Virus record (IMG/VR): IMGVR_UViG_3300007539_000214
Location: 1 to 24,494 of that record
DNA from: a virus
Strand: one strand, 5' to 3'
Length of the DNA stretch: 24,494 bases
This document shows positions 6,001 to 23,727 of the stretch, one piece after another. The notes beneath the pieces were generated by a model. The model saw only the letters and a program-made list of their open reading frames with translations, was not told the DNA's origin and searched no databases. Each line of letters starts with the position of its first letter. The first letter of the stretch is position 1. A program made the translations under genes and the position numbers.

Positions 6001-8008
6001 GTTGTAAGTAATTTAAAGTAAGAGTATCACCCGTCCAAGGTTGAAGTGAATTGCTAAAACTTATTGGTTTGTAATCGTGATAAAAATTAGAACCAGGTTG
6101 AGGATCACCATTTGAATCTAAAACACCATCATAATTAGATAATACAACATCAGTTTGCCTACCATATTTGTCAGACAAAACAATACCGACTTGATAATTT
6201 CTATTTTGTTTTACTGAATGCTGAGGATATTCTATAAACTGCTGAGCGCTTTTATCAGCAACACCTACATAGTAATCTAATCCATTTGGAGCACTATGAC
6301 CTTCTAGGTAATTAGCATACATTATTCTATTGCCGCTTGTTTCTTGAGCTAAAGCTTTAACAGGAACTTTGTCAAATACTCTAGTCGTTTGTATTGCTGG
6401 TAAAGTTGTTATAGGTATAGTTGATTGATAAGAGTATTGATAAATGTTAGTATTATTTAATGAGTTTATAAAACTAGAATCTACTTTTACTGTTTCAATA
6501 ACTTGATATGCTTGAGTATCTGACTGCTTGTATATTATGTCTATAGCTTTTACCTTATACTTATTTATTATATCAATACATGGTAACTCAATATTTAAAA
6601 CAGCGTTGTTTATAGAGTTCTGCATAAACTCTACAACACTAGTTATAAAAGCTTGATTTTCATCATCATTAACAAACTCACCTTCTTGGTAAGGTATAAA
6701 TACATCTTGACTAAATGGAGCTATAGTTGAATATTCGTTATCATCAAATTTAAATCTATAAGAAAATCTAACAAATCTTTCTGATAAATAATCAGGATCT
6801 CCATTCCAACCAGTGTAATTAGTGTTTCTTAAAACTCTTACAGAGTAACCATCAACTGTAGCGCTAGTACCTGTCGTAGATATGGCATTTGTAGTATTGA
6901 ATTTAACAAAAGCATTTGCATTAGGATTTGAAGAATCATAAGCATCTGATGTCCAAAATCTAGTTTCTGTTGTTAAATTTAAAAAACCTTGAGGATCAGG
7001 ACTTGTTGTACTGTTTCTATAACCAGCTGGTAAAACATCTGTACCGAGTTGATCATCACCAGCTCCAGAAGCCCATAAAAATTGACTTTTATAAATACTA
7101 GCCGAAGATCCAGCTGTACCTATAATACCATTCCATTCAGCTAAAGTGGGTATTCTATGACCAACAGGAGCTAAACCTCTAGGATCTATAACAGCCCATT
7201 TGTTGTATAATAAACCATATGTTACACCATTACCATTATAATTAGCATAATAACACCATCTGCCTTGTTGATTTTGATCAGCTGTGGTCCAGTCTGCTAT
7301 ATTTTGAGCTTCAGGTATTGCATCTCCATTTCTATATTTTTTTACAGCTAAATTTTCTTGAGATATTTTATATATACCTATTTCTACTACTGGAGGATCA
7401 GCAGCATCAGACATTGTTGATGGTTTTAATACTTGCTGAAAATTAGCATAATAAGAAGCTCCAGCTCTCATATTTATAAAAGATGGTGGAGAATAAGGAG
7501 CAAATTTAGCTACAGATATTTGATCTTCATTAGTATAATAACCTAATGGTTTATCTACATTTATTTTTCTAGGTTGATTTCTATTGTCTGTAAAAAATAA
7601 TTGGTTTTCTATTAAACTTATTCCAGACATGAAAAAATCATTATTACCAGAAAAATTTAAAAAACTACCATTTACTAATTCTGTTCTATTATTTGTTAAT
7701 ATGTTAACATAACCAATACTACACAAAGCGTTTAAAGGCGCGGGATCAGTTCCAAAATAATTAGTTCTAAAATAATATAATCTATTATTAGCTTCATCTT
7801 CGTAAACACCAATTATAATATGACCACTAGCTGGTGTTACGCCTGTTGTTGAATTACCTAATATAGACTCAACAGCACCAACATCGCTATTTTCTGATCT
7901 AGATATAGCTATGTTTAAAGCATCTCTATATTCGTTATTTGGAATTAGTCTTTCATCTAAGTCTTTATTCATTTTAGACTTAATGAAACTATTTTTAGCT
8001 TCTGCCAT
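3074..8008 (-). CDS. Giant tail (muzzle/nozzle-like) protein with inserted FISUMP domain (1644 aa)
   Basis: The largest gene in the window. The N-terminus (MAEAKNSFIKSKMNKDLDER) leads into beta-propeller-like repeats (for example LFFTDNRNQPRKINVDKP near 137-154). Residues about 218-395 match a FISUMP domain (TIGR02145): WCYYANYNG, YGLLYNKWAVIDPRGLAP, HRIPTLAEW, LPAGYRN, RFWTSDAY and a closing GYSVRVLR. The propeller core resumes at RFVRFSYRFKFDDNEYS (411-425). A conserved block, LAVYETAPYVSPLELFYES, lies near 1068-1087 and ends an architecture known from tail proteins of Bacteroidota phages. Residues 1100-1644 are Ser/Thr/Asn/Gly/Gln-rich and low in charge, like an adhesive or variable surface region. 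It starts 3 bases after the upstream ring-protein gene. The role in the tail hub and host contact is inferred. Confidence 0.65.
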   Translation of the reverse strand: MAEAKNSFIKSKMNKDLDERLIPNNEYRDALNIAISRSENSDVGAVESILGNSTTGVTPASGHIIIGVYEDEANNRLYYFRTNYFGTDPAPLNALCSIGYVNILTNNRTELVNGSFLNFSGNNDFFMSGISLIENQLFFTDNRNQPRKINVDKPLGYYTNEDQISVAKFAPYSPPSFINMRAGASYYANFQQVLKPSTMSDAADPPVVEIGIYKISQENLAVKKYRNGDAIPEAQNIADWTTADQNQQGRWCYYANYNGNGVTYGLLYNKWAVIDPRGLAPVGHRIPTLAEWNGIIGTAGSSASIYKSQFLWASGAGDDQLGTDVLPAGYRNSTTSPDPQGFLNLTTETRFWTSDAYDSSNPNANAFVKFNTTNAISTTGTSATVDGYSVRVLRNTNYTGWNGDPDYLSERFVRFSYRFKFDDNEYSTIAPFSQDVFIPYQEGEFVNDDENQAFITSVVEFMQNSINNAVLNIELPCIDIINKYKVKAIDIIYKQSDTQAYQVIETVKVDSSFINSLNNTNIYQYSYQSTIPITTLPAIQTTRVFDKVPVKALAQETSGNRIMYANYLEGHSAPNGLDYYVGVADKSAQQFIEYPQHSVKQNRNYQVGIVLSDKYGRQTDVVLSNYDGVLDSNGDPQPGSNFYHDYKPISFSNSLQPWTGDTLTLNYLQQIPEGDIGISGYPGAYAQGNYYEVDTETASAPSALYAYFRSLGTECIIATANQTVFSTTILYADANSNDNTFRVLVDSGNGWILQDSTSYTIANSNNYVQVTFSTGIPVGDVVKFEVLYTSENLYKYDTGASSSTNRPLFPDFPSTYADYYAVGKKLKGLYIDYTEITSVTAISDSNGVRGVEFFTKEEVATNYLFDNTPGTRPEPSKLGQINTYATYDINVLGFYIYKSVVKQQQQDYYNVYLPGIINGYPIKGETKEQNEVGFISLVNDNINKVPRNLQDVGPQQNQFTSDVAMWPRVTNINEVASTTVTYSTFNKQIDPEASSDQVDLVGGIQDLFPGLQPVNPPTIAVGEINFYSIYSYETKPFIAKISTQKAVGLKEGQYTIPTQGSGNFPYSPDLGLAVYETAPYVSPLELFYESSTSSLISELNLDIENENTNITGLSNFSYGFFESMASGVAITTDFFPTAGGQNLTNTTLAGFTCFSYFSSGPNIGQLDSSTSQANRFTVETGAQTGSYVIKTNDRFYAGATFESDSVATRGKFLFTFTFVQIDGTQVDQSTIIQLENTTPICTPAVVYPTVTSSAGGIVTNNPGANQSMAGENGSARANSLNDSSPTKITFSSSNFTSGWTIDSAVKTNSGTGVTQTITETSTPLNLSQVFNTYQNSSNFPTYQDGQATSASGDQVFFSLTAKPNANGQFPGWANEPGNQYEIYMNLTDTLGAQSTQQPNGTSAKIEYYVGAYQGTGVIINMYNNSGAGGSSNGVSQFSGAAQDQYYQIQNWTPNTVYLYIKAEITSSTQSSSSQHRTIAGGRFGDNTTGGTDAQGNTYTFIPNATANSNFSNPPSSPQAGMATAPVTFAVLQPFTAASGGLTTSEFNTAKQNGLRPGMKNTNTPNYGSYDYSGCALVNLQFQQTPGNATTVGTFSVTYSTTQNAPLGTTLGITNPNNTTPFYADSNGSVPGYPTDFGSQFVGPA
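6824..7357 (-). other. FISUMP (TIGR02145) domain inside the tail protein
   Basis: Residues about 218-395 of the 1644-aa protein. Recognised by the ordered motifs WCYY, YGLLYNKWAV, RGLAPVGHRIPTLAEW, LPAGYRN, RFWTSDAYDSS and GYSVRVLR, the hallmark of the Fibrobacter succinogenes major paralogous domain, which is found mainly in Bacteroidota and adopts a C-type-lectin-like/formylglycine-generating-enzyme-like fold. It interrupts the propeller core, whose next strand follows at RFVRFSYRFKF. Confidence 0.75.
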
Positions 8009-11112: not shown

Positions 11113-12552
11113 TTATAATCCTTTAAACAATACAAAGTTGTTAGCAGCTTGTGTTACTAAACATCTTTCAGATAGGAAGTTTACTTCCATAGCATCTAGA
11201 TCAGATGTAAAAGCACCACCAGCAGAACCAGTTAACCATGATTTCATTCTTCTGTCATCACCTTGAGAAGCTCTATATCTTACGTGTAAGAAAGGTCTTC
11301 TAATGTTAGTACCTAAGATTTGATCATATACTGTTGAAGTTCCAGCAGGAATTAAAACACCTTCGATTGATGAAGGTCCAACCATTCCACCTCTTGTAGA
11401 AGCGTCATTTAAGTATTTCCAGTCAGTTTTGTAGAAATCATAAGATCCTCTACGGAAACCTGAAAATCCAAGGTTAAGAGCCATTTCTTCAGAATTTTCA
11501 AACAAACCAAAAGCAGTACCTCCAGCGTATCCGCCAGAAATGCTAGCTAGCATGTCATCAAAGTCAAGAGCAGTTTGTCTCTGTAAGAAAAGCATGTTTT
11601 CTTCAATAGCACCTTGAGTGTCTAAGTTTTTAAGAATTGCATCAAAAGCATCAATTCCAGCAGCAGCAGTAAAACCAGTTTGTACATTACCTCTATCATT
11701 GATAGCAGCAAATAAACCTTGAGTACCACCTAATCCAGCAGGAATAGCAGCGTTATTTTTTAATTCTCCTTCAACCATAGCCATTTCTAGGTAATCTTCA
11801 AAACGTAGTCTTGTTTCAGACTCTGCTTTTAAATACCATAAATAACCAGAAGTTCCGTCTTCAGTTGCAACTTCTACCCAACCGATTTGTGCCATATCAG
11901 AACCATTTACAACGTATTTGTTTCTAATAATGATTGGTGAGTTAGAATATTGCTTAAATGAAGGATCAACACTAATATAGCCGTCTGTTGAAGTTGCACT
12001 ATAATTAGGTGTTGAAGAACCTTTAGCGTATTCAGAACCATATACAAATACTTTTACTTTACCAGTTAAACCAGCAAGAGCTAAAGTATTAGCAGTATAA
12101 GGTAGAGCAGTAATTTGTCCTACACCAGCTCCACCAGGAACAGTAGCGCTAACATAACATTTTGCTTCTACTCCATTGTCATCTAAAACTACGATAGTAG
12201 CTCCTACAGATATAACGTTAGTTACATCAGCAGCTGTACCTGTAAAATTGATAACATTACTTGCACCGTAAGCAGGTGTAAGACCAGTATAAGCTATATG
12301 TAGTCTGTTTTGCTCAGACCAAATTACTTGATCAGAGGTCATAGGCATTTCAGCCCCTACCATACGTAAAAATCCGCCTAACGTTCTGTTTCCATAACGC
12401 TCTACTTCTTGTTCGTATACCTCAGGTAGGTATTGTTGCGCGAAATCTACAAAATCAGCAGCAGCTTTGTCAGTCCACTGTAGATAATTGCTATTTAAGA
12501 CTTCTTGCTTTTGAGATGGGACAATTGACCCAAATTGTGGTGTTAAAGCCAT
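11113..12552 (-). CDS. Major capsid protein, HK97-fold candidate (479 aa)
   Basis: Size, position after the scaffold-like gene and sequence style all suggest the major capsid protein. The N-terminal arm MALTPQFGSIVPSQKQEVLN leads into LQWTDKAAADFVDFAQQYLPE and GNRTLGGFLRMVGAEMPMTS. The middle (85-170) is a beta-rich insertion with YTGLTPAYG and Gly/Thr/Val-rich strands. The C-terminal half has long-helix and shell-type segments (RLRFEDYLEMAMVEGEL, ALDFDDMLASISGGY, FLHVRYRASQGDDRRMKSWL). Codon choice and GC are somewhat higher than in neighbours, as expected of a highly expressed gene: 22 of 60 bases are G or C at 11641-11700. A strong hairpin follows its stop. The fold is inferred, since no motif alone proves it. 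Confidence 0.75.
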   Translation of the reverse strand: MALTPQFGSIVPSQKQEVLNSNYLQWTDKAAADFVDFAQQYLPEVYEQEVERYGNRTLGGFLRMVGAEMPMTSDQVIWSEQNRLHIAYTGLTPAYGASNVINFTGTAADVTNVISVGATIVVLDDNGVEAKCYVSATVPGGAGVGQITALPYTANTLALAGLTGKVKVFVYGSEYAKGSSTPNYSATSTDGYISVDPSFKQYSNSPIIIRNKYVVNGSDMAQIGWVEVATEDGTSGYLWYLKAESETRLRFEDYLEMAMVEGELKNNAAIPAGLGGTQGLFAAINDRGNVQTGFTAAAGIDAFDAILKNLDTQGAIEENMLFLQRQTALDFDDMLASISGGYAGGTAFGLFENSEEMALNLGFSGFRRGSYDFYKTDWKYLNDASTRGGMVGPSSIEGVLIPAGTSTVYDQILGTNIRRPFLHVRYRASQGDDRRMKSWLTGSAGGAFTSDLDAMEVNFLSERCLVTQAANNFVLFKGL

Positions 12553-13800: not shown

Positions 13801-16215
13801 TTATCTAGGGTCAAATTGTTCTAACCCGAAACCACCTAAATTATCAAATCCAGCGGATTCAAAATCTTGAGGTAATGTATTATTTTTTCTTTGATCTATT
13901 AGTTTTGACTCTTGAGAACCTTGCATTTTTATTCTATTGTCTTTTCTATTCTCTATTTCTTGTTCTTTTTGAGTCTCTGCGTCAGCTTTTATTTTTGCTA
14001 ACTGCATATTGTATTGAAATTCCTCAGCCATCAAACCTTTCTTTATTTCTGCCTCTTGTAACATTTTCTTTATTTCTAATTGCATTTTAGAGGTTTCAAT
14101 TTGTATTTCAGTTTCTGCTAAAGCTTGTTGTTTTTGCATTTCTGCTGTTATAGCAGCTTCAGAAGCTTGTGCGTTTGCTTGAGCTTGAGCTTGTATATTA
14201 GCTCTTTGGTTTTCTTGATCTTTTTTAGCTTTTTCTTTACGTTTCTGTTTTAATAAAGCATTTGCTAGTTTTATGTTTTTAACTTGTCTAATATCTATAG
14301 CATCGTCTAAGTCTATACCACCTGACTGCAAAGCTATTTGTATATTTTGCTCTAATTGAGCTTTAGCCTCTTCATCTGGTTCTAATTCTAAGAATATACC
14401 AAAATCTTGAAGATTTTTTTCTTGTAATTCTTCTAAAGTTCCTGTGTTATATGAAGATATAGAATCTATTAAAGCAGCTCTTGTTAAAGGGTAATTTAAC
14501 GCGTCTGCTATTCTAAGAGCTATATTTTCACAAGATCTTAATGTTAAATATAAACCACCTTGCATAATATGTCTTAATGCAGTATTTGAATTAGCAGCAG
14601 CTAATTTTTGTAAACCTACTAACGCATCTTTACTAGGTGTGCTAGCGTCGCTTGCTTCATTTAAACCGGTTACATCACGTATCATTTGTAAATAATACTG
14701 GTAAGTTTGAATTAGGCTTTGTATTTTAGCACCTCCATTGCTTGTTTGAAGCTCTTGAATAGGTACTTTACCTCTATTTAAATCGCCATCTTGCGTCATA
14801 GATCTACCAACAATAGAACCTGTTTGAAAATACATGTTTAACGCTTCAGACGCATTATAATTTGTTCCATTACCTAAATCAACTTCAGCTAAACCATCTA
14901 CATCAACAAAAACACCATCAGGAACCATGCGTGATAATACTTGTTGTAACTTCAAATGTGTTAATTGTATCATATCAGCAAAACCTGTTATTCTGCTAAC
15001 TGTAGACTCAATAGCGCCTTTGTACATACGTGGTGCACATATAGAGTAATTCATATTAACTTTTGTTAAATTAGAATTAGGTCTAGTCATATTTTCAGAT
15101 AACCTCCAATCTAACATCATTTCATGACCAAGTATTTTTGCTCCTGTATATAAAACTTCTATACTTCTACCTACTCTTTCAAAATTATCATTTGGTTGAG
15201 GATTAAAAGTATCTGGTTTTTCTAAAGCTTTTTCTAAACCTTGATCTGTTTGTTTTATTTTAAATACTTGATTGCTGTATGTTTTATATTCAAAATATAA
15301 AACTTGAACTTGATTATATGAATCTTGTTGTGCATAGAAATTCCTAGTATAATTTGCGTCACCTGGAAATTTTTCTATTTTTTTAAGTTCTTCATCTGTT
15401 AAACCAGGAAATTGTTTTTTAAGCTCAACTAAACTTATTGATTTAACTTCTCCAGCATAATATATATCATCAAAGTTAGGATCTTCCGTGTATGAATAAA
15501 CTAAATTAGCAGGGTCAACATAATTAACAGTAACACCGTTAGCTAAATTAAAATCTGTTTTAACAGCAGCTATACCTATTATAGTTAAATCTTGTATTAA
15601 TCTTTTCTTTATTAATTCGTATTTGTTATAAGATAAAACATTCTCTATAGCCTCTTCTTCAGCTATTTCAATTGATTGTTTATAGCTTAATTGCATATGA
15701 AGATCTAATTCTTGCTGAGATTCTGGTATATTATTAGGATCATTGGTATTGAAAAAATTCATACCAGTAGCTTGATTAGTTGCTTCAATAATTTCTTTAG
15801 CATACATGTCTCGCATTATCGCATCTGCATACTTTGTTCTTTGCTTTAAAGATTCAGGATCTTGAGCAAAAGCTTTAATGTCAAATATTTTTTGAGACAT
15901 ACCATTAACTATTATATCTACAAACTTAGGTATAATAGGTACTGGTTTCCAGTCTAAATTTAAATAAGATAAATCGCCATTGACAGCTAATTCATCTTTG
16001 TATTTTTGTACAGGTTGTTCACCTCTTGCGTAAAGTCTTAATCTATGAAAATTTAACCAGCTATTCTGGTATCTATTACCTAAACCCCCTCTATCTCCAG
16101 AAAACCACTCTCCTTCAATAGCTCGTCCTACGGCGTAACCATAATCATAACTTTGCTTTTCTTCATCAGATACTACCTGACTAGGAAACGAACCTGCGTA
16201 ATTAGTGTAAATCAT
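13801..16215 (-). CDS. Portal protein (804 aa)
   Basis: The dodecameric portal at the packaging vertex. The start abuts the terminase stop with no gap, and the scaffold-like gene follows: the standard TerL-portal-scaffold-capsid order. Segments fitting large podovirus or crAss-like portals include FHRLRLYARGEQPVQKYKDE (57-76), VPIIPKFVDIIVNGMSQKIF (92-111), INYVDPANLVYSYTEDPNFD-like wing residues near 230-250, and the stem/clip region RITGFADMIQLTHLKLQQVL followed by GSIVGRSMTQDGDLNRGKVP. Residues about 660-790 are a long Gln/Ala/Glu/Lys coiled coil, probably the barrel or crown extending into the head. At 804 residues it is longer than most portals but normal for crAss-like phages. The call is strong from order plus overall pattern. 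Confidence 0.8.
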   Translation of the reverse strand: MIYTNYAGSFPSQVVSDEEKQSYDYGYAVGRAIEGEWFSGDRGGLGNRYQNSWLNFHRLRLYARGEQPVQKYKDELAVNGDLSYLNLDWKPVPIIPKFVDIIVNGMSQKIFDIKAFAQDPESLKQRTKYADAIMRDMYAKEIIEATNQATGMNFFNTNDPNNIPESQQELDLHMQLSYKQSIEIAEEEAIENVLSYNKYELIKKRLIQDLTIIGIAAVKTDFNLANGVTVNYVDPANLVYSYTEDPNFDDIYYAGEVKSISLVELKKQFPGLTDEELKKIEKFPGDANYTRNFYAQQDSYNQVQVLYFEYKTYSNQVFKIKQTDQGLEKALEKPDTFNPQPNDNFERVGRSIEVLYTGAKILGHEMMLDWRLSENMTRPNSNLTKVNMNYSICAPRMYKGAIESTVSRITGFADMIQLTHLKLQQVLSRMVPDGVFVDVDGLAEVDLGNGTNYNASEALNMYFQTGSIVGRSMTQDGDLNRGKVPIQELQTSNGGAKIQSLIQTYQYYLQMIRDVTGLNEASDASTPSKDALVGLQKLAAANSNTALRHIMQGGLYLTLRSCENIALRIADALNYPLTRAALIDSISSYNTGTLEELQEKNLQDFGIFLELEPDEEAKAQLEQNIQIALQSGGIDLDDAIDIRQVKNIKLANALLKQKRKEKAKKDQENQRANIQAQAQANAQASEAAITAEMQKQQALAETEIQIETSKMQLEIKKMLQEAEIKKGLMAEEFQYNMQLAKIKADAETQKEQEIENRKDNRIKMQGSQESKLIDQRKNNTLPQDFESAGFDNLGGFGLEQFDPR

Positions 16216-18432
16216 TTATCTTATTATTTTTGAACTAAATCCTTTATTGTCATATTTTTTAAAACCAAGGTTTTTAACTTCTAATTTTCTTTTAAAAACT
16301 GGCGTGTAAAGATTTTTATTACAAGCCATTATTGCTAAACCTGAACTAATAGAAGCATCGTGTTTTGTTCTATCATTTATATCAAATCTAGACCAATCTT
16401 CTAAAGTTTTTTGAAAATATACGTTTCCATAACCTTCGTCTAATTTACCTACATAATTTTCAATATAGGATTCTATAGCAGCCGCGTGAGCTTGTTTTAT
16501 ATCTTGACTTGAATTAGGTATTCCACCTATTTCTTTTTCTGTTACAGATAATTTCATATATACTTTATCTGGTCTATTCATAGAATAACCTCTATAACCT
16601 CTTCTTTTAAAATGATATAAAAGTCTAGGTTTATTATTTTCTGCTAATATAGGCATTCCATAAAACACACAAGCCATAAGAACATCTTCGAAAAATATCT
16701 CAGCAGTCTGTGGTCTTGCTATGTATTCTAAAAAAAACATACTATTAGGCACATCTTCCATTGAAAACTTTGTTAATCCGTGAAGTGATCCTTTAGAACC
16801 ACGCGCGTCAACAGTACCTGATATGTCATATGGATCACAACCAAAAGAGCCACAATGTTCATTTCCTGGGTATTTTAATCCATTTTTAATTATTACACGA
16901 TTTTGTAAATTTAAAGGTGGAACCCAAGTTACACTAAATCTACCTGAATCATTAGGAACAAATAAAACCTTAGTATCTTTAACACCATTTTGCCATTGAA
17001 ACGATCCTTTTGTAACAAAAGTGTTTGTTCTAAAATCTTCGTTATAATCTATTTGTTCGTATATTTTAGTTAAGTTGAATAAAGATTGTTTAGCTTCGTC
17101 TCTAAACGCATGTTGTTCTGTTCTTGGAAACTGTCTATAAAATTCATTTAAACCTTCTTGATCTTTTTTTAAACCATCAACTTCGTTTTGCCAATATTCT
17201 AGTACACCTATTTTTATTTTTCTTCCGTGCGGACCCTCTGTATTTTCGATTGGAGTTTCGAAGACAGGTAAGCCATAAGAATCAATGTATCCTTCGTAGT
17301 TCCATTCCATAGGTATGAACAAAGAATATAATCCTGAGCGAGTCTCTCCATTGGCGTTTCTTTCTTTGACGTTCGAATCATAATATAGTTTTTTAAAGTT
17401 ATTACCACCTTTGTCAAGTGCATTACTGGTTGATCCCATCATACACTTACCTATAATTCTACCACCTAATCTTAGCGTGGTTTTTGTAACCCTCCAGTTG
17501 TTGAGGATGTTGTTCGGCTTCTCCCATTTACCGCTTTCATCATGGACGAGGAGTTTAAGTTTCTCCCCATCGTAGGAGTTGTCACCTGTATTCTTCCAGT
17601 CGATTGTGGTGTCCAATCCCTGTAATTCGTCCTCGGTTTCGTCGTAGGCAGCGGTGAGCTTTCTACGGGTGAACTTTGAGGCTGGTACACGGTAGGCAAG
17701 CTCGGTCTTTGGGCGGTCCATACCGTCCTGGGTCGGCTTGAAAAAGAAGGGGTAATTAACCGATATGGGTACCACCTTGTCTGTGAACATCTTTTTAGCA
17801 TCAGGACCGGACTTTGATAATATACCATATCTAGAGTCAGATGATATGGTTGCCAAGTTAACCACCTCTCCTGACGCCATAAAGGAAAACCCAGAACGTC
17901 TGTTCTTAAGGTAGCACAGTCCGTAACATCTATCATCGGCTTTACAAGCTTCCCAGAAAATGAAGAATAATCTATTTGACTCCCGAAAGTCTGGTGCCCC
18001 GACATCAATCTTACTCCACTGCAAGTACATGTAATGAGTACCAGTAATATAAGTAGGAATGTTTTTGTTATAAAACCAAAAACCTTTCTCCCTACGGGTA
18101 AACTCATTATCGATGTAATCATACCACTTTTCTTTAAAATCTAGTGGATATTGTTTCCAATCAAAAGTAGATTTAATTCTATCTAATTCTTTTGGATATT
18201 CAAATTGTGTCCACTTATTGTTATCAAACTTATATATATTTTCTTTTTTTGGTAAAGCTATTTTTAGGTTTTGTATCTCATACACTTGACCTATTTTACC
18301 AGTTTTACTTATAACTACAACATCGTGTTCTTCGTTATAACCATATTCCCAACTATTGCTTTTGTTATTTCTTTTTAAAACTTTACTTGGAATATGATCT
18401 TCTAGTATTTTATATAAAGTTTGTTTATACAT
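16216..18432 (-). CDS. terL: Terminase large subunit (738 aa)
   Basis: ATP-driven DNA packaging motor with nuclease. I use the ATG at 18430-18432, which overlaps the upstream stop by 8 bases and has GAAGG just upstream; a longer reading from TTG at 18462 adds ten unlikely residues. The ATPase domain shows a Walker-A-like LKNRRSGFS (175-183; the usual GK is degenerate, as in several phage terminases), Walker B LKLLVHDE (292-299, Asp298/Glu299) and coupling motif GSTSN (333-337). The RuvC/RNase H-like nuclease has GCDPYD (Asp533), ILAENN (Glu598) and KHDAS (Asp692). The portal gene follows with no gap. Odd feature: DNA encoding residues about 104-404 is much richer in GC, reaching 51% in its core, and uses CTC, ATC, AAC and GAG codons absent from its flanks. 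Confidence 0.88.
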   Translation of the reverse strand: MYKQTLYKILEDHIPSKVLKRNNKSNSWEYGYNEEHDVVVISKTGKIGQVYEIQNLKIALPKKENIYKFDNNKWTQFEYPKELDRIKSTFDWKQYPLDFKEKWYDYIDNEFTRREKGFWFYNKNIPTYITGTHYMYLQWSKIDVGAPDFRESNRLFFIFWEACKADDRCYGLCYLKNRRSGFSFMASGEVVNLATISSDSRYGILSKSGPDAKKMFTDKVVPISVNYPFFFKPTQDGMDRPKTELAYRVPASKFTRRKLTAAYDETEDELQGLDTTIDWKNTGDNSYDGEKLKLLVHDESGKWEKPNNILNNWRVTKTTLRLGGRIIGKCMMGSTSNALDKGGNNFKKLYYDSNVKERNANGETRSGLYSLFIPMEWNYEGYIDSYGLPVFETPIENTEGPHGRKIKIGVLEYWQNEVDGLKKDQEGLNEFYRQFPRTEQHAFRDEAKQSLFNLTKIYEQIDYNEDFRTNTFVTKGSFQWQNGVKDTKVLFVPNDSGRFSVTWVPPLNLQNRVIIKNGLKYPGNEHCGSFGCDPYDISGTVDARGSKGSLHGLTKFSMEDVPNSMFFLEYIARPQTAEIFFEDVLMACVFYGMPILAENNKPRLLYHFKRRGYRGYSMNRPDKVYMKLSVTEKEIGGIPNSSQDIKQAHAAAIESYIENYVGKLDEGYGNVYFQKTLEDWSRFDINDRTKHDASISSGLAIMACNKNLYTPVFKRKLEVKNLGFKKYDNKGFSSKIIR

Positions 18433-18706
18433 TTTTAGATCTACCTTCAGCAAAACCAGCAAAAGTTCTTTCTTTTTTAACTTCTTTTGGTTTTTCGTTT
18501 AACATATCCTCTTCTTCTTGTAAACGTTGTAATATTTCAAAAGCATCAAATATTGCTAATTTTTTTGTTGCTGCAGCATTTTTAAGTCTGTCTGCAGATA
18601 TATCATCGTCTGAATCTACAATAGGTTCTTTAGCCACCTTTATAAGCTCTTCAACAGCTACGCGCCCAGCTTGGATTATATTCTTCTTCGTTTCCTTTGT
18701 GCTCAT
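18425..18706 (-). CDS. Candidate terminase small subunit (93 aa)
   Basis: A small acidic, helical protein directly upstream of the large terminase and overlapping its ATG by 8 bases. The core, RVAVEELIKVAKEPIV then DDDISADRLKNAAATKKLAI and FDAFEILQRLQEEEDMLN (15-70), looks like a short helical bundle; the C-terminus is Lys/Glu-rich and disordered. I recall this pattern next to terL in uncultured marine phages, but no helix-turn-helix is obvious, so the small-subunit role rests on position and size. Its first 56 bases overlap the 3' end of the co-chaperonin-like gene in another frame. No downstream ATG would leave the conserved core intact, so the overlap appears real. Confidence 0.5.
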   Translation of the reverse strand: MSTKETKKNIIQAGRVAVEELIKVAKEPIVDSDDDISADRLKNAAATKKLAIFDAFEILQRLQEEEDMLNEKPKEVKKERTFAGFAEGRSKNV

Positions 18707-19256
18707 ATTTAATTACAATATCATTTGATTTCATACAATAAACTCTTTCATTTTCAATAATAAAATCCCATTCGCTGTTAGGTGTAAAACCCACAACATC
18801 ACCAGGATTAATATTAAGCGCTTCTAATGAGTTATTACTATATTTTAGTATACCTATAAGGGCTTGTTCTTTTTTGTTGCTTAATTTATCTTTATTTATT
18901 ATCGGTTTAACAAAACATCTATCACCAAACGAGTGATAACCATTATTGTTTTTATAAAGATATATTTGATCTAAGCTACAAAAATACAAATCATTTTTAA
19001 AATATGATCTGCTTTTTTTCTTAACACCTTTCATACCGTAAAATGTTCTAAACACATTTTGATGTACTATTATTAAATCACCTTTTTTTATAGGTGTTTT
19101 AAAAGCTTTAGGTGTTTCTATAACCTCGGCTATTCTATTAACAAACTTCCAGTTTTCAACCTTAGTATTTAATACTAATTCTTTATCATCTACTTTTATG
19201 CTATTAGAATATTCTTTACCAAATGGTTTTACTATAAAATCATATAGACTTTTCAT
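18651..19256 (-). CDS. GroES-like co-chaperonin candidate (201 aa)
   Basis: A beta-rich protein with a pattern that suggests two 10-kDa-chaperonin-like units: NRIAEVIETPKAFKTPIKKGDLIIVHQNVF (written here as NRIAEVIETPKAF plus IKKGDLIIVHQNVF, about 41-68) resembles the GroES core of strand, turn, K-x-GD-x-V-hydrophobic. FKNDLYFCSLDQIYLYKNN and DRCFVKPI follow; a second GDVVGF unit lies near 153-158, and the protein ends YNPSWARS. Phages with large head proteins sometimes carry a co-chaperonin (T4 gp31, RB49 CocO) that partners with host GroEL to fold the capsid protein; placement just before the packaging and capsid genes fits. GroES is about 97 residues, so this protein is long. Its ATG shares one base with the preceding stop (TAATG). 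Confidence 0.45.
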   Translation of the reverse strand: MKSLYDFIVKPFGKEYSNSIKVDDKELVLNTKVENWKFVNRIAEVIETPKAFKTPIKKGDLIIVHQNVFRTFYGMKGVKKKSRSYFKNDLYFCSLDQIYLYKNNNGYHSFGDRCFVKPIINKDKLSNKKEQALIGILKYSNNSLEALNINPGDVVGFTPNSEWDFIIENERVYCMKSNDIVIKYEHKGNEEEYNPSWARSC

Positions 19257-20320: not shown

Positions 20321-20785
20321 TTATTTTTTACTTATTGTTTTAAATTTTTCTGCACCTCGTGAACCAAAATAAGCCACGTAAACTGTAATTAAAAGAGATT
20401 TTAATAGATCAACCCAACCGCCATCAACATCAAACTGTATATTAGAGCTTTCAAGAACTATTAAAATTATTAAAGATATAGTTAAAAATATAAGAGTCAT
20501 AGGGCGTGTGTTTTTAGACAACCATGAATCTGATTTCATATCACTATCCCAACGCTTAGATATTTCTTGCATTTCTACCATGTCTTGCTCTAATAACTTT
20601 AAAGCTTTTTCTTTATCTTCTGGTGGTAAAATTACAGGATCTTCTTTTTTTATTAAGTTTTTAACTACACCTAATAAGCCTTGATCTGGTAAAACATCAG
20701 ATATACCATCAACTAGCTTAGGCGCAGTTCCTAATAAAAACTGACCGACTTTTGTATCTTTAAACTTCTTTTTATTATCTGGCAT
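20321..20785 (-). CDS. Holin-like membrane protein, 3TM-holin type (154 aa)
   Basis: An amphipathic N-terminal half (residues 1-60, with PDQGLLGVVKNLIKKEDPVI) is followed by the family-like stretch EISKRWDSDMKSDSWLSKNT and RPM, then a hydrophobic helix LIFLTISLIILIVLES (about 98-113) and a second one, LLKSLLITVYVAYFGSRGAE (127-146). The RWxSDMxSDSWLSKNxRP motif before the membrane helices is the mark I know from holins of the gene-transfer-agent/3TM type. The C-terminus is basic. Its start codon abuts or overlaps the stop of the GldL-like gene, so the two membrane proteins are co-translated. The likely role is inner-membrane permeabilisation at lysis; an endolysin is not visible nearby. Confidence 0.65.
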   Translation of the reverse strand: MPDNKKKFKDTKVGQFLLGTAPKLVDGISDVLPDQGLLGVVKNLIKKEDPVILPPEDKEKALKLLEQDMVEMQEISKRWDSDMKSDSWLSKNTRPMTLIFLTISLIILIVLESSNIQFDVDGGWVDLLKSLLITVYVAYFGSRGAEKFKTISKK

Positions 20786-21225
20786 TATTTTTTAATTACC
20801 TTTAGTATTGATTGATAAATTTTATTTATATCGAATGTATTTTTTGCTAAAGATACAGAATTTTTATTTATATCTTCGTAAGCTTTTACAGACGACTTAC
20901 TAAGTTTTAAATGAGCAGCGTGTGATTTATTTATTAAATTAATATTCTCAACAGCTTTCTGTATTTTATTAGCGTATTCTTTTTGAGCTTTAACTATTTC
21001 ACTAGTGTCATAAGGTTCATAAATTACACGCGAGTTATCGTTTGTATCTTTAGTTGTCTCGAATGCAGAATAAGCAAAAACAATAGCTTCTGTTATCATA
21101 CCTATTGTTAATAATAATGAGCCATATGGCCAGTGTTGAATTTTAGCAAGAGCTCCTAAAATAACGACTGCAGCTCCGAGCCCGTAGAGCATATTAGTAA
21201 AGTCTAATTTTAAATTTTTTAACAT
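20785..21225 (-). CDS. GldL-like (gliding/type IX secretion motor) membrane protein (146 aa)
   Basis: Residues 9-56 closely follow the N-terminal membrane domain of GldL, the inner-membrane stator of the Bacteroidota type IX secretion/gliding motor: FTNMLYGLGAAVVILGALAK, then IQHWPYGSLLLTIGMITEAI, then VFAYSAFE. Two membrane helices (about 12-30 and 35-55) flank the HWP turn. Lys28 and Glu46 occupy the places of the conserved charged residues in GldL helices 1 and 2 (Lys27 and Glu49 in F. johnsoniae) that are needed for motor function. The cytoplasmic part (70-146) is helical, with INLINKSHAAHLKLSK and LAKNTFDINKIYQSILKVI resembling the LNxVYxxxL repeats of the GldL tail, but the whole is shorter than cellular GldL (about 210-220 residues). 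No GldM partner is seen. It is co-translated with the holin-like gene. Confidence 0.75.
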   Translation of the reverse strand: MLKNLKLDFTNMLYGLGAAVVILGALAKIQHWPYGSLLLTIGMITEAIVFAYSAFETTKDTNDNSRVIYEPYDTSEIVKAQKEYANKIQKAVENINLINKSHAAHLKLSKSSVKAYEDINKNSVSLAKNTFDINKIYQSILKVIKK

Positions 21226-21240
21226 AACATTTAATTTAAT

Positions 21241-21267
21241 TATTTATATATAATCTATATATAAATA
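21241..21267. promoter_or_regulatory. 27-base AT palindrome upstream of the GldL-like gene
   Basis: A perfect 12-bp inverted repeat, TATTTATATATA at 21241-21252 and its complement at 21256-21267, around a 3-base centre (ATC). It ends 15 bases before the GldL-like start codon and lies in one of the longest gaps between genes in the window (21226-21295). It could be an operator, a promoter element or an RNA hairpin hiding the start. Confidence 0.45.
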
Positions 21268-21268
21268 G

Positions 21269-21281
21269 TTACATGTTATTT
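21269..21281. repeat. 13-base motif TTACATGTTATTT, copy 2
   Basis: Identical to 10279-10291 and located between the AT palindrome and the stop of the 653-aa gene, 43-55 bases upstream of the GldL-like start. Confidence 0.3.
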
Positions 21282-21295
21282 TAATTAATTACGAT

Positions 21296-23257
21296 TTACT
21301 TCTTTTTATCTCCACTAAAAACCATTTTACTACCAAATAAACCACCTGTAACAGCTGGTAATTTATTCATTGATTTAGCTAAAGAAGAAAAATTACTTTT
21401 AGATTTATCCATAAAATCAAAAATTCTAGTACCACTTACATTTACATCTTTACCATCGCTTTTTAACACGGCTTGAGTTACTGGATTTTTATCAAAATAA
21501 TTTTTAGCTTTAGATAAAATCTGTGGAGTTATTTTATCATAAGGATTTTTTATAAAACCTTGATCAAGCAAAGATTGTCTTAATTCTCCCGCAAAAGCCC
21601 TAGGCTCCATATTTCCACTTCCTCCATATTTAAAATAATCGTAATCTATGTCTGATGCTGGTTGATTTGCTAAATGATCTTGAAATCGTGAGTCTGCTGC
21701 TTTGTGATTTTTAGCAAAATCATCGCTATGAACATTTAGATTATCTCTTGCAGATAGCAGATCATCATATTTTTTGTTATAATCTAAAACCTCTTTGCTA
21801 GGTTTAATAGCACTAGATAACTCTCTGTCAAGAGGCGTTGTTCTACCAACTTGAAAACCGTGTTGCTGTTCGTGAGCATAGATTGTTTTTGGTTTAGCTA
21901 TATTTTTATCTCCTAAAATAAAATTACCTTTATTTAATTGAGAGGCATTTTGAACGCCTTGTAATGAAAATCTATCAACATCATTAGTTTTTTTAAAACC
22001 ACCAAAAGTAGCATTGGAATCTAAATATTCTCTAGGAACAGAATTATATAATATGTCTTTTGCTTCACTGTAATTTAATTTCCCTCCTTTTATAGCCTCA
22101 GCTGCCCTTTCATTTAAATTAGGTTTAGACATTTCTTGAATTCTAAAATTAACATTTTTTTGCGCTTGTTCAGCTAAGTCAGCATCAAATAGTTTTTTTG
22201 TTTTTGTGCCAAGACCGCCTAAAAAGTTTTGTTCAATTTCTAAAAATTCATTACCAGGTGTTTGTTTTCTTATAAATGGATGGGCGTGTGCTTCAGGGAT
22301 TTGCATTGTTTTTCTTAATTTTTCCATTTCACCCTGTAAATAACCTAACTCTTGATCATATAATCTTTTTTGACCTTCAGGTGTATTTAATCGCTCCATT
22401 GTTTTTAATCTTTCAAATTTACTAACCTCAGCGTTTTTACTTAAATCTTCAAGAGTATTATACATAGATTCTCTAGTTTTTGGATTAAATCTTCCAAATA
22501 TACCTGGTGATTCTGGTAATTTACTAGCCGCACTAGCAGCTTCGTCTCCTTTTGCAGCCAAACTATAAACTAAATCATCTGCTTTGTTTGCTAATCCTTT
22601 TACTGCTTTAGCTCCTTTTGCACCTTTAGTTAATAATCCAGCTCCAAAGAGTAAATTGGCTGGATCTGCTACTATATCCATAGCTGTATTTAAAGAACCT
22701 CCTAAATCCCATCCAGGTTTATCTTCAAAACCTATTGTTTCAGATGGTAGTCTTTGTGATCCAGGTGTAAGAGCGTTTGCAAAATTATAAGGATTTCCTC
22801 TCAAAGCTTCTATACCTTCAACCGCAAGTGATTGAGGAGCTTGAAGTGTTGTCATTACCATGGATGCAGGCTGTTCTGCTAATATACCTGTTACCATATC
22901 CATAGCATCACCTGCTAAACCTTCTCTAGTTTGAGCTCTTCTTCTAACACCTCTACCAATTGCCCCTGAGTCGTTAAAATATTCTTTTTGTTGATCAGAA
23001 AGTTCATCAAATAAAGGATATTGATTATAATCTACATCTGATCTTACTACTACTTCATCAAGATTTGGTCTATGTATCGAACCTTCTCCAAAGTATTTAG
23101 CATATTCCGCATCTGACATACCAGAATCGCTTTGTGTAGTATAAACTAAATCATCAACTATTTGTTGACCATCTTTTTTGCTATGAGGTTTGCCTTCATG
23201 CATTTTAACAGGACTAGAACTTCTTAGTTTTCCGAAATAATTTTTTTTAAGCCCCAT
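21296..23257 (-). CDS. Large virion/internal protein with HExxH metalloprotease motif (653 aa)
   Basis: The N-terminus contains SSSPVKMHEGKPHSKKDGQQ (13-32) and then a disordered acidic region. Residues 110-245 are Ala/Gly-rich and weakly hydrophobic, with DPANLLFGAGLLTKGAKGAK (198-217), a style typical of ejected internal virion proteins. Residues 255-445 are mostly helical. Near 458-467 lies TIYAHEQQHG, a zinc-binding HExxH motif (His462, Glu463, His466), and NMEPRAFAGELRQSLLDQG (549-567) offers Glu551 or Glu558 as third ligand, as in other phage-borne metallopeptidase domains with an E-x-RA-x-x-x-ELR pattern. It could help digest the cell wall or process virion proteins during entry; the substrate is unknown. 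It starts 2 bases after the 155-aa HExxH gene. Confidence 0.6.
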   Translation of the reverse strand: MGLKKNYFGKLRSSSPVKMHEGKPHSKKDGQQIVDDLVYTTQSDSGMSDAEYAKYFGEGSIHRPNLDEVVVRSDVDYNQYPLFDELSDQQKEYFNDSGAIGRGVRRRAQTREGLAGDAMDMVTGILAEQPASMVMTTLQAPQSLAVEGIEALRGNPYNFANALTPGSQRLPSETIGFEDKPGWDLGGSLNTAMDIVADPANLLFGAGLLTKGAKGAKAVKGLANKADDLVYSLAAKGDEAASAASKLPESPGIFGRFNPKTRESMYNTLEDLSKNAEVSKFERLKTMERLNTPEGQKRLYDQELGYLQGEMEKLRKTMQIPEAHAHPFIRKQTPGNEFLEIEQNFLGGLGTKTKKLFDADLAEQAQKNVNFRIQEMSKPNLNERAAEAIKGGKLNYSEAKDILYNSVPREYLDSNATFGGFKKTNDVDRFSLQGVQNASQLNKGNFILGDKNIAKPKTIYAHEQQHGFQVGRTTPLDRELSSAIKPSKEVLDYNKKYDDLLSARDNLNVHSDDFAKNHKAADSRFQDHLANQPASDIDYDYFKYGGSGNMEPRAFAGELRQSLLDQGFIKNPYDKITPQILSKAKNYFDKNPVTQAVLKSDGKDVNVSGTRIFDFMDKSKSNFSSLAKSMNKLPAVTGGLFGSKMVFSGDKKK

Positions 23258-23259
23258 AA

Positions 23260-23727
23260 TTAAGAATTTTTAGTTTTTTGATAAGCTTCTTTTTCCCAAG
23301 GTAAATTTTTTGCACCTTCATTCATATCGTCTCTTGAATATGTTTTACCTTCCCAATAAACATTGTCGTCATCATAACTTAGCCTACCATCTTTTATTTG
23401 TTTAATATGCACCATTTCATGATCTATGACATCTTGCTTTTGTTTTGGATCTTTAATGTCTTTATTTATAAGTATACTACCATTGTTAGTAGCCATACCT
23501 AAAGTATCATCACCCATATCTACGTGCATTATAGGTGTATTGGAATTTTCTTCATTATATGGTGATCCTTTCATTTTAAAACCCATTTTTAAAGGAGAAG
23601 TTCTTTTACTTTTAGCTGCTTTTAAAGAAGCGTCATTTCCAGTTCCAGCGCCAGATCTTTTTCTTGCTTTGTTCCACTCAGGACTATGCATTAAAGAACT
23701 CCAACAGTGTTTTATTGGTGAACCCAT
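23260..23727 (-). CDS. Small HExxH metallopeptidase-like protein (155 aa)
   Basis: The first 60 residues are basic and probably disordered, with repeated SP-K segments (GSPIKH at 2-7, TSPLKM at 43-48, KGSPYN at 53-58). A compact domain follows: a strand pair TPIMHVDMGDDTLGMATNNG, INKDI, then QDVIDHEMVHIKQIKDG (98-114) containing HExxH (His103, Glu104, His107), and later DDDNVYWEGKTY and NLPWEKEAY (141-149), where Glu145 or Glu147 may be the third zinc ligand. The order is that of small zinc metallopeptidases. It is the first gene after a hairpin terminator and is joined to the larger HExxH gene. Peptidase activity is likely but its target is unknown; a lysis or virion-processing role is possible. 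Confidence 0.6.
   Translation of the reverse strand: MGSPIKHCWSSLMHSPEWNKARKRSGAGTGNDASLKAAKSKRTSPLKMGFKMKGSPYNEENSNTPIMHVDMGDDTLGMATNNGSILINKDIKDPKQKQDVIDHEMVHIKQIKDGRLSYDDDNVYWEGKTYSRDDMNEGAKNLPWEKEAYQKTKNS

Follow-up and report, generated by a model that had tools for sequence, protein, structure and literature searches.

A shortened homolog of the gliding motor subunit GldL recurs in phages and may serve as a motor part

The GldLM motor is described as a GldL pentamer around two GldM helices (PMC8986121, PMC9389320, PMC12239597). Few rotary motors driven by protons are known, and GldLM is one of them; its anchoring and cytoplasmic control are reported as open questions (PMC9389320, PMC10951265). 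In Flavobacterium johnsoniae GldL, E49 was reported to be indispensable for type IX secretion and E59 to be needed for gliding (PMC8986121), and E49 was reported to pair with Arg9 of GldM in the motor (PMC12239597). On the cytoplasmic side, the CheY-like domain of PorX was described to bind the GldL cytoplasmic domain, and PorL to rely on a hydrophobic patch at its C-terminus for PorX (PMC10951265). Phage sensitivity in Flavobacteriia was also reported to be affected by genes for gliding and type IX secretion (PMC13288928). Among viruses, auxiliary motA and motB genes were described in one glacier-ice viral genome and were read there as manipulation of host motility (PMC8290583). This was the nearest precedent seen among the literature matches listed. 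No earlier report of phage-encoded GldL or GldM appeared among these matches, which were drawn from the open-licence literature. A viral auxiliary gene paper (PMC8522061) was set aside as a precedent, since the words "gliding motility" occur there in a reference title only.

We analysed a window of 24,494 bases (IMG/VR record IMGVR_UViG_3300007539_000214), in which a short gene on the minus strand lies next to a holin gene. The features of the window are collected in Table 1.

Table 1. Position of gldL, of its coding parts and of the neighbouring phage genes in the window (aa, amino acids)
Feature	Position	Strand	Basis
Phage gldL, 146 aa	20785..21225	(-)	PF22827, TIGR03513, PDB GldL matches
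Two-helix membrane (motor) domain, residues 9-56	21058..21201	(-)	Pfam, PDB alignment, AlphaFold2 model
K28 codon	21144-21142	(-)	Aligned to F. johnsoniae GldL K27
H31 codon	21135-21133	(-)	Aligned to F. johnsoniae GldL H30
E46 codon	21090-21088	(-)	Aligned to F. johnsoniae GldL E49
E56 codon	21060-21058	(-)	Aligned to F. johnsoniae GldL E59
C-terminal helix, diverged LNxVYxxxL-type motif (INKIYQSIL), ~residues 120-146	20788..20868	(-)	
Holin (phrog_3427), next gene to gldL	20321..20785	(-)	E 1.3e-17
653-aa protein (family c1), function not assigned, directly upstream of gldL	21296..23257	(-)	
GroES-like co-chaperonin (phrog_13932)	18651..19256	(-)	PHROG match
Terminase large subunit (phrog_6681)	16216..18462	(-)	PHROG match
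Portal protein (phrog_6547)	13801..16215	(-)	PHROG match
Virion structural protein (phrog_13704)	11113..12552	(-)	PHROG match

The first-pass annotation had proposed a phage-encoded GldL-like protein at 20785-21225, and this was borne out by Pfam, NCBIfam and PDB matches. The Pfam model GldL_N (PF22827) matched residues 13-68 with an E value of 1.8e-23 and 82.9 bits against a cut-off of 24. TIGR03513, the NCBIfam GldL/PorL equivalog, gave 88.6 bits against a cut-off of 68.3 over two matched stretches. A significant GldL profile match, which had been named as a check, was obtained outright with both models. A phmmer search of the PDB at E up to 1 gave six sequences, of which five were GldL/PorL (E 2.8e-14 to 4.1e-5) and the sixth was unrelated (E 0.083). 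The AlphaFold2 model was built from 23 sequences and was of low confidence (mean pLDDT 64.8, pTM 0.29), with helices at residues 2-29, 35-55 and 74-145. In the Foldseek comparison with the PDB, also named earlier as a check, GldL/PorL chains took the top nine places, but with this weak model only the first had an E value below 0.001 (4.0e-4). In a second structural comparison, an unrelated Mediator chain reached Z 8.0 beside PorL at Z 8.2. The VIA-align Z scores of the window model were of the size seen with unrelated helical hairpins and contribute little. The case for GldL rests on sequence, because the model was weak and the Mediator chain scored near PorL. On these matches, it is nearly certain that the ORF encodes a GldL homolog. 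By its domain content it is a shortened GldL homolog and not an ordinary GldL, because the full-length cytoplasmic domain is absent.

The window terminase matched 87 phage records, namely 68 of Flavobacterium, 15 of Cellulophaga, two of Tenacibaculum, one of Maribacter and one metagenome genome. On this basis the window phage is grouped with Flavobacteriaceae phages, and a host in this family is likely. Of 299 genomes sampled from the family to which a Kordia genome belongs, 293 carried GldL_N, which suggested that likely hosts possess the motor. Six public relatives were opened: MW202828 ("Podoviridae sp.", a circular metagenome genome of 60,850 bases) and five cultured isolates, Flavobacterium phage elemoA_7-9A, Cellulophaga phages phi38:1, phi19:3 and Calle_3, and Tenacibaculum phage Gundel_1. 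Three of these genomes have an annotated GroES-like gene immediately upstream of the terminase. GldL_N was absent from all six at E up to 1. This indicated that such phages can do without gldL, and the absence was counted against a role as a motor part. A tblastn search of 50,697 phage records with the window protein gave no match at E up to 1. Base composition had been taken as a sign that the acquisition was not recent, and this argument was not upheld. The GC content was 0.283 for the gene and 0.320 for the window, and the two gene halves gave 0.339 and 0.247. Since these values are unequal, composition says little about the age of the acquisition.

Several further features of these genomes were observed. 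The 70-base gap upstream of gldL (21226-21295) has a GC content of 0.10 and contains, by eye, an inverted repeat with arms at ~21242-21250 and ~21258-21266. In the group B loci that were read, the gap before gldL measures 74-81 bases. The AT-rich gap is a possible promoter or control site. At 23260-23727, the window encodes a 155-aa protein with an HExxH-type motif (HEMVH) that is zincin-like by eye and matches phrog_16532, a family with no assigned function. L007, which is related to the window and 56 kb long, carries a phage groEL and a short additional groES upstream (96-1464), besides the 201-aa GroES near the terminase.

Viral scans and ORF reading gave 37 gldL-bearing viral records (the window among them), which encode 24 distinct proteins. 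GldL_N was run on 28 of these records and was above the cut-off in all 28. The records were grouped by sequence and context. In groups A (window, L001, L007-L010), B (L011-L021) and F (L030), gldL sits between a ~650-aa gene and a holin gene, and the c1 neighbour upstream was common to the tabulated loci of these groups. In group C (L022-L026, L121, L122, L123, L127), it lies in a replication module in the order exonuclease/SSB pair, gldL, 76-aa ORF, primase/helicase-like protein and helicase. The near neighbours in group D (L027, L028, L031) gave no PHROG match, and a baseplate gene was located ~5 kb downstream. In group E (L029), the one neighbour tested matched PHROG families without assigned function. 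Group G consists of L116 and L117, and four ORFs separate the holin from gldL in L117. In group H (L151, L152), gldL at 6986-7381 lies between groEL (517 aa) and groES (85 aa), its start overlaps the end of groEL, and an endolysin gene is ~2.7 kb away. In group I (L154), a 559-aa ORF is followed by gldL, one ORF, an amidase gene and, further on, a holin gene; the gldL DNA of this record holds at least one undetermined base. In group J (L160), a 100-aa relative at 6965-7267 points away from head and tail-sheath genes on a contig that also carries a head-protease gene. The tail sheath marks this as a contractile-tailed phage, unlike that of the window.

GldL itself was the only shared element seen across the replication, chaperonin, lysis and other contexts. 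Contamination by host DNA was rejected for groups A, B, C, D, F, G, H, I and J, where gldL lies amid phage genes (terminase, portal, holin, primase/helicase, baseplate, amidase or tail sheath). GenBank MT839621 (L137; "Bacteriophage sp.", UNVERIFIED) was not counted, since its ORFs read as those of a bacterial fragment with GldK-, GldL- and GldM-like genes. It was the only record found when phage records were searched with L023, L027 and L030. Groups A and B and part of group C share a leader ahead of gldL (AATTAAATYAAAT..ATG), which also precedes other genes in some of the loci and was uninformative. In L023 (5061-5186) and other group C loci, a terminator-like hairpin with a T run was seen by eye just upstream of gldL, which suggests that gldL may start its own transcript there.

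The helix-turn-helix membrane domain, with a lysine in helix 1 and a glutamate in helix 2, was present in the window protein, and Lys28 and Glu46 were confirmed where the first-pass annotation had placed them. The equivalences with F. johnsoniae GldL were counted by hand on alignments, in which window Y14 also aligns with Y13. K28 and E46 were kept in all 24 distinct phage proteins. H31 was kept in 22 and was replaced by Asn solely in L151/L152. W32 was kept in 19 and P33 in 12. The conservation expected for Lys28 and Glu46 therefore held, but that of the HWP turn was not strict. The E56 site was E in 16 proteins and D in two (acidic in 18 of 24) and was lost in six. In the cellular rows, K and H were each present in 72 of 72, E in 73 of 73 and the P of HWP in 60 of 72. 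The cellular set was the best 80 of at least 580 loci, which gave 73 rows after removal of near-duplicates. Some search patterns had contained conserved residues, and the first 20 phage proteins were checked for this bias. A pattern without K or H was matched by 16 of the 20 and a pattern without E by 19, and all carry those residues. Both patterns of the cellular scan included K or E. The codons of the three conserved sites (K, H, E) vary synonymously among the phage proteins. For the membrane domain, pN/pS of the window was 0.133/0.60 against L011, 0.138/0.51 against L012, 0.125/0.54 against L017 and 0.119/0.39 against L021; for L012 against L020 it was 0.033/0.55. By this pairwise measure, with pN well under pS, purifying selection acts on the membrane domain of phage GldL.

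The window GldL extends ~90 residues beyond the hairpin and has neither DWSxVYPEL nor the middle part of the cytoplasmic domain. In the cellular GldLs listed, which are 203-331 aa long (excluding L110, whose start is cut off), the membrane domain is followed by a DWSxVYPEL-type segment, and the protein ends in an LNxVYGxML-type helix. The end of the window protein aligns with this last helix. A profile of cellular GldL C-termini gave 13.5 bits on the window tail, a score reached by one of its own 499 scored shuffles and by one of 10,500 among all shuffles. The best other viral-locus ORF, with GldL ORFs removed, gave 7.3 bits. The helix was clear in 13 of the 24 distinct phage proteins (15.6 to 48.7 bits). 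The eight tails of groups A and B gave 9.3 to 13.5 bits, with L015 under the best of its own shuffles, and the signal was absent in three of 24 (L029, L030 and L160). The window protein aligns over residues 1-132 of L116 GldL with 41% identity, and the L116 tail gave 48.7 bits. The C-terminal motif of the window group is weak by score alone and is aligned with this clear tail. The resemblance to the GldL tail claimed earlier was supported through such full-length-aligned relatives, and it was less firm for the window alone. The phage tail was less constrained (pN/pS 0.325/0.58 for window and L012, 0.073/0.08 for L012 and L020), which was counted against a role as a motor part. Between L012 and L020, synonymous-site difference was 55% in the membrane half of gldL and 8% in the tail half. 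Such a contrast may point to mosaic exchange at the membrane domain.

One lineage carries the partner subunit as well. L116 and L117 (the latter is IMG/VR 3300022857_000101) are two assemblies with 35 differences across 13,290 bases compared. They encode a 133-aa GldL and, 42 bases on, a 530-aa GldM (L117 8442-10034). All four GldM Pfam domains were found in order (E 2.5e-31, 1.3e-14, 9.1e-17 and 8.7e-13), TIGR03517 gave 356.8 bits against a cut-off of 180, and Arg9 is present. The phage GldM is 49% identical to Dokdonia GldM over 532 columns. The flanks are phage genes of the window lineage, with GroES 64% and terminase 73% identical to those of the window. L116 and L117 were the two records with GldM among the 32 gldL-bearing records tested (L001, L013, L015, L016 and L025 lay outside this test), and they were the sole confirmed records in a viral scan with a GldM alignment. 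A profile search of the window record found no GldM. Since GldM is missing in 30 of 32 records, most gldL phages would depend on the GldM of the host. In a quick GldM tree, the L117 protein stood beside Dokdonia GldM (SH-aLRT 100), with long-branch warnings.

A GldL tree was built from 55 columns with 73 cellular and 20 phage rows, with groups H, I and J not included. Groups A and B were placed with Kordia/Winogradskyella (81/80), C was placed elsewhere, and D, E and F stood apart. A single clade of all phage rows was not rejected in this tree (p-AU 0.056), and the same applied to A, B and C together (p-AU 0.259). Because the gene contexts vary, independent captures of gldL are suggested.

We propose that the phage GldL is a motor subunit that would assemble with the GldM of the host, or of the phage itself, and retune the motor. 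We gave this reading a probability of about 0.55, because K28 and E46 are always kept, the membrane domain is constrained and one lineage carries GldM. During infection, the shortened GldL would insert into the inner membrane as a two-helix hairpin and join the pentamer around two GldM helices, which would come from the host in most phages and from the phage in L116/L117. With the proton path of Lys28 and Glu46 retained, hybrid or replacement motors might form, whose cytoplasmic control part is unlike that of the host. This altered part suggests retuning, for example a release from the control that the host exerts through the cytoplasmic domain of GldL. The phage could then turn the type IX secretion and gliding motor to its own benefit, for example by keeping it running when the host would halt it or by altering which surface proteins, phage receptors among them, are exported. 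What we infer here is assembly with host GldM, proton conduction, an effect on the host and a benefit to the phage. The losses of the E59 equivalent (6 of 24), of the histidine (2 of 24) and of the C-terminal motif (3 of 24) were counted against a motor part, as were the missing GldM and the missing middle of the cytoplasmic domain. As for the net effect, sustaining, redirecting and blocking the motor are all compatible with the sequences. The wider proposal, that GldLM motors of hybrid or entirely viral make-up are built by phages of gliding Bacteroidota, which so take over type IX secretion and gliding, is tentative and was placed somewhat short of an even chance.

A serious rival is that the short GldL acts as a dominant-negative poison, which would enter the GldLM pentamers of the host and jam them. 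SprB-type adhesins, type IX-dependent surface proteins and phage receptors would be lost, and superinfection exclusion or a stop of gliding would result. The missing cytoplasmic middle would suit such a block, and so would the presence of gldL without gldM in 30 of the 32 records tested. Mutations of the gliding machine were reported to confer phage resistance in Cellulophaga (PMC13288928), and PfsE of Pf phage offers a precedent, as it was reported to bind PilC and to protect against superinfection by suppressing type IV pili (PMC8764522). However, a poison would not need K28 and E46, which no phage protein has lost, and L116/L117 encode a full GldM. The kept proton-path residues and the GldM-carrying phage speak more for a functional motor part than for a simple poison, and we regard dominant blocking as unlikely, though it has to be taken seriously.

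A role in lysis is less likely still and appeared improbable. The protein would here be a two-helix second holin, a pinholin or a proton leak alongside the neighbouring holin. Groups A, B and F have the holin adjacent to gldL, L154 has an amidase and a holin downstream of it, and the window protein gave a weak match to phrog_739, "Rz-like spanin" (E 4.1e-4, 21.5 bits), far below that to GldL_N. No holin family was listed among its profile matches. However, the tail of a spanin is periplasmic and that of GldL is cytoplasmic. Away from the lysis genes, gldL lies between SSB and, past the 76-aa ORF, the primase/helicase-like protein in group C, and between the two chaperonin genes of L151/L152, ~2.7 kb from the endolysin. 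Four ORFs intervene before the holin in L117, where the partner GldM has no known lysis role. The varied surroundings mean that the lysis neighbourhood is incidental and not a common feature, and the lysis-tied role raised in the first-pass annotation was not supported, since the holin is a neighbour in A, B and F and the other groups lie elsewhere. That gldL is a neutral passenger from host DNA, functionless in the phage, was judged very improbable. Its absence from the six public relatives, its shortness and its loosely constrained tail are what such a passenger would show. Against this, pN/pS in the membrane domain was well under 1, one slot was kept in groups A, B and F despite divergence to 40% identity over 98 columns, and gldL recurs across several gene contexts.

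If the wider proposal of hybrid or viral motors is true, viruses would repeatedly take over a rotary motor of their hosts by replacing a subunit, and one lineage would bring the shaft too. The phages supply natural minimal GldLs, with the membrane domain and mostly the C-terminal helix, which could be used to dissect the parts that are needed. Since gliding and type IX genes affect phage sensitivity, a phage motor subunit is a testable case of superinfection control, takeover or export control.

Compared with known systems, the window protein is closest to GldL/PorL (PDB 6ys8, 7sat, 7sau, 7sax, 7saz). It has the same motor domain with equivalents of K27, H30, E49 and E59, a diverged LNxVY-type C-terminal helix and scores above the family cut-offs. 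It differs in being phage-encoded, in its length of 146 aa (the cellular proteins listed have 203-331 aa), in lacking DWSxVYPEL and the cytoplasmic middle, and in having no gldM in its record. Zorya ZorA/ZorB is likewise described as a 5:2 motor linked with phage biology (PMC11890865). However, Zorya is a host defence, and the PADLOC models matched none of four proteins, including the window protein and the phage GldM, at E 0.01. PfsE resembles the window protein as a small phage protein aimed at an inner-membrane part of a host surface motility machine; it is reported to bind PilC (PMC8764522), whereas the window protein is itself homologous to the host motor subunit. The viral motA/motB genes share with phage GldL and GldM that a proton-driven motor gene pair is phage-borne. 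They encode a flagellar stator and were found in one vOTU, whereas the phage GldL(M) belongs to a Bacteroidota motor and is recurrent, usually as a shortened GldL alone.
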